Virus record (IMG/VR): IMGVR_UViG_3300042376_001430
Location: 1 to 27,039 of that record
Length of the DNA: 27,039 nt
Reading direction: 5' to 3' (one strand)
Source: a virus
Both the position numbers and the translations under genes were made by a program. Shown piece after piece: positions 1 through 5,222 of the stretch (position 1 is the first letter of the stretch; every line of letters begins with the position of its first letter). Below the pieces are notes generated by a model. It saw nothing but the letters and a program-made list of their open reading frames with translations, had not been told where the DNA came from and ran no database searches.

Positions 1-44
1 GGATGCATTATTCGCTTGCATCCGACCGCCACTCGCCTTAAACA
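1..44 (+). promoter_or_regulatory. Promoter with embedded inverted repeat, upstream of gene 67-456
   Basis: Arms GGATGCA (1-7) and TGCATCC (17-23) flank the 9-nt spacer TTATTCGCT. The right arm contains a -35-like TTGCAT (16-21), followed 17 nt later by TAAACA (39-44). The same arrangement recurs at 2583-2624 and, degenerate, at 3591-3631. I infer a promoter overlapped by an operator for a dimeric regulator. Confidence 0.55.
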
Positions 45-66
45 AAGGTATCAACAGGAGGTACTC

Positions 67-1208: not shown

Positions 1209-1475
1209 CTGTAATGGTAGCAGGGGGTGGCAGCATTACACAAGCGCAAACATGGGAAATATGGAAATCCCCTATAGTGCATTACCATTACATGGCTCGG
1301 CCGGCCTCTACCCGATCATTACTGTAATGGTGTAATGCTCACTACTTTATGTAGTATATTTATATGTCCATATAGTATTGAGTCCCTTTCCGACTCTACT
1401 GTACAACGGCCGATGCATCGGAACTCTTACTGACTCTACTCTGTAATGGACCCATCTATACTGAAACCATTACAG
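1209..1475. repeat. Cluster of CTGTAATGG / CCATTACAG elements
   Basis: Copies: CTGTAATGG at 1209-1217, 1322-1330 and 1441-1449; the opposite orientation CCATTACA at 1285-1292 and CCATTACAG at 1467-1475. Variants are GCATTACA (1233-1240) and TGTAATGC (1331-1338). CATTAC-T-GTAATG at 1317-1329 is a perfect inverted repeat, and 1441-1449 with 1467-1475 forms a spaced inverted pair. Two more copies lie at 3410-3417 and 3441-3449, the latter inside a promoter spacer. Likely binding sites for a phage regulator or initiator. Confidence 0.65.
1341..1380. other. AT-rich segment, possible DNA unwinding element
   Basis: Only 9 of these 40 bases are G or C, in otherwise GC-rich DNA. It includes two small inverted repeats, ACTAC-tttat-GTAGT (1341-1355) and TATATG-tc-CATATA (1361-1374). 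It sits among CTGTAATGG elements. An unwinding element of an origin, or the promoter of the minus-strand gene, are both possible. Confidence 0.4.
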
Positions 1476-3325: not shown

Positions 3326-3434
3326 TGATCGTCATGTGTAGATCGCTCGGGGCCGCATCTACACCTGACCGACCCTCGCCACTTAAATCAAGTTTACATC
3401 TGTTTAGTGCCATTACACTTTCCCCGCCCTCCCC

Positions 3435-3463
3435 TTGCGTCTGTAATGGAGGTGTCCTAGGGT
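3435..3463 (+). promoter_or_regulatory. Promoter-like TTGCGT-17-TAGGGT with operator in spacer
   Basis: TTGCGT (3435-3440) and TAGGGT (3458-3463) are separated by exactly 17 nt, and that spacer begins with a perfect CTGTAATGG (3441-3449). Protein bound there would block RNA polymerase. The transcript would start about 185 nt upstream of gene 3658. Confidence 0.45.
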
Positions 3464-3590: not shown

Positions 3591-3631
3591 GACTTTATTC
3601 GCTTTACATCCGTTTATGCCAGCCGTAGGGT
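3591..3631 (+). promoter_or_regulatory. Promoter of the tiny-gene operon
   Basis: TTTACA (3603-3608), 17 nt, TAGGGT (3626-3631). The preceding TTATTCGCTT is identical to the spacer of the element at 1-23 and CATCC follows, but the left arm is lost. It lies 27 nt before the start of gene 3658. Confidence 0.55.
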
Positions 3632-4817: not shown

Positions 4818-4865
4818 TTAACTTGACAATCTTAACTTGACAATCGCGCAGATCCGTGTGTAAGC
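4818..4865 (+). promoter_or_regulatory. Promoter with duplicated -35 box upstream of fibre genes
   Basis: TTAACTTGACAATC is present twice in tandem (4818-4831, 4832-4845), giving two consensus TTGACA boxes 14 nt apart. From the second TTGACA (4837-4842) a -10-like TGTAAG lies at 16 nt (4859-4864). It starts the virion-surface gene block 28 nt before gene 4893. Confidence 0.55.
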
Positions 4866-4892: not shown

Positions 4893-5222
4893 ATGCCTGT
4901 CATAAATCCTATCCTAATCGGGTTTGACTGGTCCCAAGCCTTCGATCTTCCTGCTGGGACAATGCAGGTTGGCGATACTGTCCGCGCCGATTTTAGATAT
5001 GCGGTAACGGATGAAGAGCCCGCTGCTTCTATCGTAAGTGGGGCGGGCGTTGCTATATCAGGTGATCGGATTACGCTAAGCCTCACTGAAGTGCAAACGC
5101 GCACGTTGAAAGTCCGCGATATCCTAACCAGTTTAGTGATCGTGCGAGGTCCGGCTGAGATTGCAATCGGGCAGATAATCACTATTCCGATTGCTCTGCT
5201 ACCGACAAGGAGCATCGTGTGA
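4893..5222 (+). CDS. Putative fibre-associated beta-sandwich protein
   Basis: 109 residues starting [22 protein letters not shown], with Shine-Dalgarno GGGGAA. The sequence is nearly all short beta-strand-like segments with an Ig-like rhythm ([41 protein letters not shown]). There is no signal peptide. Its stop overlaps the GTG of the collagen-like fibre gene (GTGTGA), so the two are translated together. I infer a virion accessory or attachment protein for the fibre. It could also be a chaperone; confidence in the function is low. Confidence 0.6.

Follow-up and report, generated by a model that had tools for sequence, protein, structure and literature searches.

A conserved TGTAATG repeat cluster as a candidate replication origin and early switch in siphophages related to Nipunavirus

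We found that a 27,039-bp fragment from a viral contig collection (IMG/VR record IMGVR_UViG_3300042376_001430; the window, that is, the whole record) carries a cluster of the 7-mer TGTAATG directly upstream of a minus-strand gene, and that the same word is clustered at the corresponding place in five relatives, next to the AT-richest part of the gap and beside an HTH/primase–helicase module. We read the cluster as an origin of the iteron type, or a region that binds an initiator, with a possible further role in the control of early promoters, and on sequence comparison, which makes up the whole analysis, give this reading a probability of about one half. The window terminase is ~75–81% identical to those of Nipunavirus-like siphophages (NP1, PaMx25, MMDA13, MiCath and others), and phages of Pseudomonas, Xanthomonas and Sphingomonas are among the members of the Nipunavirus-related group (Queuovirinae). 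No mapped origin for Nipunavirus-related siphophages was found in the literature examined, and the cluster is a concrete candidate for the origin and an early switch of these lytic phages, one that can be tested. The main comparison covered five phages: the window, its nearest sister for this region (contig G051, locus L161), Sphingomonas phage vB_StuS_MMDA13 (L006; the nearest named relative with a homologue of the minus-strand gene), G009 (L113) and G023 (L116). Pseudomonas phage MiCath, of the same group, was added as a sixth.

A repeat cluster upstream of the minus-strand gene

The first-pass annotation had described a repeat family, written as the 9-mer CTGTAATGG, with at least seven copies or close variants in the 270 bp upstream of the minus-strand gene. 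The family is real: with up to one mismatch there are 13 copies against 3.13 ± 1.74 expected, and none of 100 shuffles reached 13. Exact copies number five in the record (plus strand, 1209, 1322, 1441 and 3441; minus strand, 1467), and the one-mismatch copies include two on the minus strand at 1285 (ATGTAATGG) and 3410 (GTGTAATGG). The count of seven stands for a shorter unit, TGTAATG, mostly followed by G or C, and not for exact 9-mers, only four of which lie in the cluster. TGTAATG occurs nine times in the whole record, seven times at 1210–1474 and otherwise at 3411 and 3442, a pair 31 bp apart (p ~0.002 for two random positions). The 314 bp from 1187 to 1500 thus hold seven copies, on both strands, against 0.08 expected, and GTAATG is present nine times within the cluster.

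The cluster copies lie in both orientations at irregular spacing, a pattern that would suit operators and iterons equally well. The copy nearest the minus-strand gene is a plus-strand CTGTAATGG (1209–1217), 22 bp upstream of its ATG, followed by a minus-strand TGTAATG (1234–1240; GTGTAATGC) and a minus-strand tandem of GTAATG and TGTAATG (1280–1293; CATTACCATTACAT). Beyond these is a palindrome, CATTAC-T-GTAATG (1317–1329), with a second direct copy, the whole spanning 1317–1338 and including a direct TGTAATG pair (1323 and 1331) 8 bp apart; CATTACTGTAATG of this palindrome region is also present in MMDA13. The far end is formed by an inverted CTGTAATGG pair (1441–1475) around a −10-like TATACT (1457–1462).

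Conservation in related phages

Directly upstream of their homologues of the minus-strand gene, G051, MMDA13, G009 and G023 have five TGTAATG copies each (7, 5, 5, 5 and 5 with the window), and G007 is the same as G023 in sequence at the cluster. TGTAATG was the only 7-mer with at least two copies in all five upstream regions—the next best had a minimum of one—and the minimum count never exceeded one in 300 shuffled upstream sets. The sites are kept although the adjacent proteins share only ~20–30% identity with those of the window. MiCath has four copies at the corresponding place, where its gene (570 aa) is unrelated to, or unrecognizable against, the minus-strand gene. That chance or base composition produced the cluster is rejected by the shuffle tests and by this conservation, and we give it a negligible probability. 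The likewise clustered 7-mer in four relatives and MiCath, by the AT-richest stretch, points to use of the repeats by a site-specific DNA-binding protein, for control or as an origin, as the first-pass annotation had suggested.

Clusters were found in relatives in which the homologue of the minus-strand gene heads the leftward arm. No TGTAATG cluster was seen in G003, G004, G011, G002, NP1 and probably G001, where the gene is present, inside an operon or behind other upstream DNA. The site-bearing phages do not form one clade in a primase–helicase tree (at least three changes), and G003 and G004 fall inside a clade of site-bearing phages. As these close relatives keep the gene, the HTH protein and the primase without the cluster, the same replication genes are not always accompanied by the element, and the TGTAATG sites cannot be the sole initiation route in the group.

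The cluster is not described in the MMDA13 papers (PMC7472734 and PMC9437464), which do describe another repeat of the gap, a 12-bp repeat upstream of gp54 (PMC7472734) that overlaps predicted CtrA sites (PMC9437464). This repeat shares the intergenic gap with the cluster but differs in sequence and lies at the gp54 end, whereas the cluster is at the gp53 end. Because CtrA-binding sites are predicted there (PMC9437464), host regulators may act in this gap, and TGTAATG could likewise be the site of a host-encoded factor. We regard this as highly improbable, given that the same 7-mer is found in MMDA13 (Sphingomonas) and MiCath (Pseudomonas putida), whose hosts belong to different classes, and that no known TGTAATG factor was found among the top-ranked titles of the literature searched; the CtrA consensus TTAA-N7-TTAA has no match in the window. 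Plasmid and bacterial-genome searches gave no useful match, nor did top-ranked titles on TGTAATG, CATTACA, TGACCACA or the 8-mer TGTGGTCA (see below) with origin, iteron or phage.

The AT-rich element and the replication module

The most AT-rich 45 bp of the gap (1339–1383; 76% A+T) has TGTAATG on both sides and is a candidate melting element. In all six phages sites adjoin or enclose the AT-richest 45-mer of the gap: they lie on both sides of it in the window, G051 and MiCath, and adjoin it or lie to one side in MMDA13, G023 and G009. NP1 and G002 have the AT-rich element and no TGTAATG.

The cluster occupies the point at which a leftward replication arm and a rightward early arm diverge. The window begins inside this region, such that the replication module would fall beyond its edge; the module was read in relatives. 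After the gene, MMDA13, G009, G023, NP1 and others encode an HTH_17-like protein and, beyond it, a DUF3987/NrS-1-like primase–helicase; a primase–helicase of this kind lies within ~3 kb in G051, MMDA13 and MiCath. All site-bearing relatives checked have the HTH_17 protein and the primase–helicase, and MiCath lacks the gp53-family gene; all three are also found in phages without sites. The recognition helices of HTH_17 proteins showed no clear difference between phages with and without sites. In MMDA13 and G023 cumulative GC skew reaches its minimum here (in the 48 kb and 9 kb bins, respectively). An origin would fit this minimum, but divergent transcription alone predicts it as well.

We propose that the TGTAATG array provides sites for one phage-encoded DNA-binding protein where the two arms diverge. 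An initiator would load onto these sites, the AT-rich element that they flank or adjoin would melt, and the phage primase–helicase, whose gene in relatives lies one or two genes along the leftward arm, would then be loaded. Binding to the same sites may also repress or time local promoters, such as that with TATACT at 1457 and, in this phage alone, that with TTGCGT/TAGGGT at 3435. Candidate binders are the HTH_17 protein, the primase–helicase and the gp53-family protein, the last being the least likely on present evidence.

Other origin-like features were found nearby. G053 (L181), a relative with other sequence here, has at the same place seven direct TTTTGAGATCTTA repeats with a 27–29-bp period (L181 3706–3882), abutting the gene upstream of HTH_17. 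The window has a second, regular array (1988–2110), absent from the first-pass annotation, that consists of CCACTACA (reverse TGTAGTGG) on the plus strand at 1988, 2039, 2054, 2070, 2087 and 2103, the last five copies being 15–17 bp apart and all copies on one strand. The word is one base away from the reverse complement of TGTAATGG; the array is conserved in G051 (L161 2168–2273), and no exact copy of the word was found in the examined stretches of MMDA13, G023, G009 and MiCath. One-mismatch matches of CTGTAATGG at 2054 and 2087 (TGTAGTGG) belong to this separate array and were rejected as members of the cluster. On the minus strand, TTTTCCACA (2393–2401) matches the DnaA-box consensus TTWTNCACA, with an equivalent in G051 at L161 2577. 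At its rightward end the gap carries a GTTAAC cluster in MMDA13, G009 and G023, which in MMDA13 corresponds to the published 12-bp repeat (PMC7472734) and predicted CtrA sites (PMC9437464); by eye, the window has GATGCA-type copies instead (2345–2610).

The minus-strand gene product as a candidate binder

The minus-strand gene (458–1186) encodes a 242-aa homologue of MMDA13 gp53 and heads the leftward replication arm in relatives. Its product had been put forward as the protein that recognizes the repeats, with co-conservation of gene and repeats as the measure. The two proved separable, because the gene occurs without sites (NP1, G002–G004 and G011) and the sites without a detectable gene (MiCath); the first-pass annotation had itself listed relatives with the gene but not the repeats as a refuting outcome, and its choice of binder is not supported. 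Strict coupling of gene and repeats is contradicted by these relatives, and the pairing of gp53-family gene and sites that an autogenous operator implies does not hold across the group.

A looser form, in which the gp53-family product is both binder and autoregulator, perhaps through a basic helix (RLNRERVSRARGRK) before a long helix, draws on the position of the gene beside the sites in all five main-set phages and on a conserved basic motif around NRE..xR. The product is predicted to be all-helical (AlphaFold, mean pLDDT 79.5), the model placing a basic helix (126–148) ahead of a low-confidence loop and a long helix (168–227). Set against this are the gene kept without repeats in G003, G004, G011, G002, NP1 and probably G001, the repeats of MiCath with no detectable homologue, and the lack of a PDB fold match and of a Pfam or PHROG family; we consider this role doubtful. 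A bZIP-like reading of the basic motif was rejected, as the zipper helix is not continuous with the basic helix in the model, and the protein has no structural match.

Promoter-like sequences and the operator alternative

About 2 kb from the cluster, an inverted TGTAATG pair (3410–3449) surrounds a −35-like TTGCGT (3435–3440), which is followed by a 17-bp spacer starting with CTGTAATGG and by TAGGGT (3458–3463). The plus-strand copy of the pair thus sits between −35 and −10 as first described, and the distances to the −10 are indeed similar, 8 nt before TAGGGT and 7 nt from 1441–1449 to TATACT at 1457–1462. The window has two such promoter-like matches that end in TAGGGT, TTGCGT-17-TAGGGT (3435–3463) being one of them. 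It is possible that the inverted pair controls the tiny-gene operon, as the first-pass annotation also suggested, but the pair is absent from the sister phage G051.

Such pairs bear on the main rival to the origin reading, in which the sites are purely transcriptional operators and a phage repressor or activator bound to TGTAATG controls divergent early promoters (those of the minus-strand gene, the rightward RNA and the tiny genes) with no replication role. Inverted pairs bracket both TATACT (1441–1475) and TTGCGT (3410–3449), the second pair lies 2 kb away from the cluster, and promoters are AT-rich as well. Yet the promoter pair at 3410–3449 is missing from G051, the majority of conserved copies surround the AT-rich core instead of keeping fixed promoter positions, and unrelated viruses have TGTAATG arrays around AT-rich cores by SF3 helicase genes. 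We therefore hold the purely transcriptional account to be possible, though somewhat unlikely, and continue to favour an initiator-binding region that may double as a regulator.

Promoter-like sequences were also noticed ahead of short plus-strand genes in the window (17–46, 2597–2624, 3435–3463 and 3603–3631), with the pattern TTGCAT/TTGCGT/TTTACA, 16 or 17 bp, then TAGGGT or TAAACA; two of the four were found by eye. A perfect tandem duplication (TTAACTTGACAATC twice, 4818–4845) lies upstream of the gene at 4893.

Recurrence of TGTAATG in other viruses

Viral contigs were scanned for three direct TGTAATG copies, with GTAATGT as the control word. Among the 120 matches listed, at least 12 stretches had at least five TGTAATG on both strands, compared with six for the control. 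Spacings in the listed TGTAATG stretches were such as 5, 8, 9 and 10 bp, and all spacings were divisible by three in 43 of 120 TGTAATG stretches versus 105 of 119 control stretches, among the matches listed. A reading as coding repeats was rejected, as the control word forms mostly in-frame coding repeats and TGTAATG mostly does not. TGTAATG arrays in mixed orientation, their spacings short and irregular, were also found in unrelated viral contigs, in two of which (L197 and L265) the cluster adjoins an SF3-type helicase gene. DUF5906 passed the cut-off in 3 of the 15 other records with clusters, as against none of 31 controls (Fisher p ~0.03), an enrichment that weighs less than its p value suggests because several of the 15 records are near-duplicates, the sample being small, partly redundant and chosen by motif. 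The co-occurrence of DUF5906 and TGTAATG is suggestive only. That TGTAATG is an origin word common to unrelated DNA viruses, the present siphophages among them, with iterons around an AT-rich core read by related or convergent SF3/PrimPol-type primase–helicase domains or by HTH partners, seems to us quite unlikely.

A candidate structured RNA and a genome-wide 8-mer

A conserved noncoding block of ~540 nt separates the TGTAATG cluster from the rightward genes in MMDA13 (L006 34088–34625), G023 (L116 9690–10240) and G009 (L113 138–682). In these three sequences alone, 41 of 157 predicted pairs are kept with both sides changed, and an RNA model of the block (R1) finds it only in the MMDA13, G023 and G009 phages. 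An Rfam search of the gap gave no match of note (one far sub-threshold miRNA match), and we regard the block as a candidate new large structured RNA. The window has a plus-strand noncoding stretch (1470–1915), partly conserved in G051 (L161 3698–4215), that is itself a candidate structured RNA; the two share, for example, GGGGCCAnGCCCAGG and CCTAAATC, and the G051 stretch has moved downstream of two tiny genes. Searching the window with model R1 gave weak matches only (best, 8.1 bits); the stretch may belong to this RNA class in diverged form.

The whole phage group is strongly enriched in the 8-mer TGTGGTCA: 10 copies in the window (0.7 expected), 49 in MMDA13 (1.7 expected), 52 in G023, 53 in G009, 29 in the 43.6 kb of NP1, 27 in the 49 kb of MiCath and 32 in the 50 kb of VPv62, against 1 in the 40 kb of the unrelated G022. 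The window copies are all on the plus strand (147, 2144, 3533, 8378, 10423, 11213, 17306, 19559, 21857 and 24855). Mean spacing is ~1.2–1.3 kb in MMDA13 and G023, often with alternating strands, and copies fall in several reading frames, on either coding strand. They are candidate sites of nicking, packaging, recombination or modification. The RNA candidate, the second iteron array and TGTGGTCA are perhaps more interesting than the TGTAATG cluster itself.

Comparison with known origins

In mini-F, an iteron plasmid, the initiator RepE is autoregulated. The window resembles this type in that one region has related words both in a direct array (TGTAGTGG, 15–17 bp apart) and in inverted pairs (CTGTAATGG), the link between the two words being putative; unlike the mini-F type, no Rep-family protein was found here. 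The origin of satellite phage P4 has type I iterons bound by the alpha protein, a primase–helicase initiator. It shares with the present cluster short iterons in both orientations and AT-rich DNA, but differs in sequence, and no binding domain was identified in the present phages.

A matching layout is that of the pri-rep-ori replicons of PICIs, among them EcCICFT073 of Escherichia coli CFT073, the origin of which is functional (PMC6092414). Read from the CFT073 genome, this origin follows a D5_N/DUF5906 primase–helicase gene and has repeats of the GTCTACC type on either side of an AT-rich stretch. The present cluster likewise combines short 7–8-bp repeats in both orientations, an AT-rich stretch and, as read in relatives, a primase–helicase gene nearby, and in the window the short repeats form two sets flanking the AT-rich region, as in PICI/P4-type origins. 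It differs in its word (TGTAATG), in its helicase (DUF3987 with an NrS-1-like domain) and in its setting, a divergent gap in lytic siphophages as opposed to a position just 3′ of the primase gene. The likeness to PICI/P4-type origins is thus one of layout only, and we claim no membership. Because the EcCICFT073 origin has such a layout, we take the TGTAATG cluster as candidate initiator-binding sites of an origin, perhaps serving as operators too.
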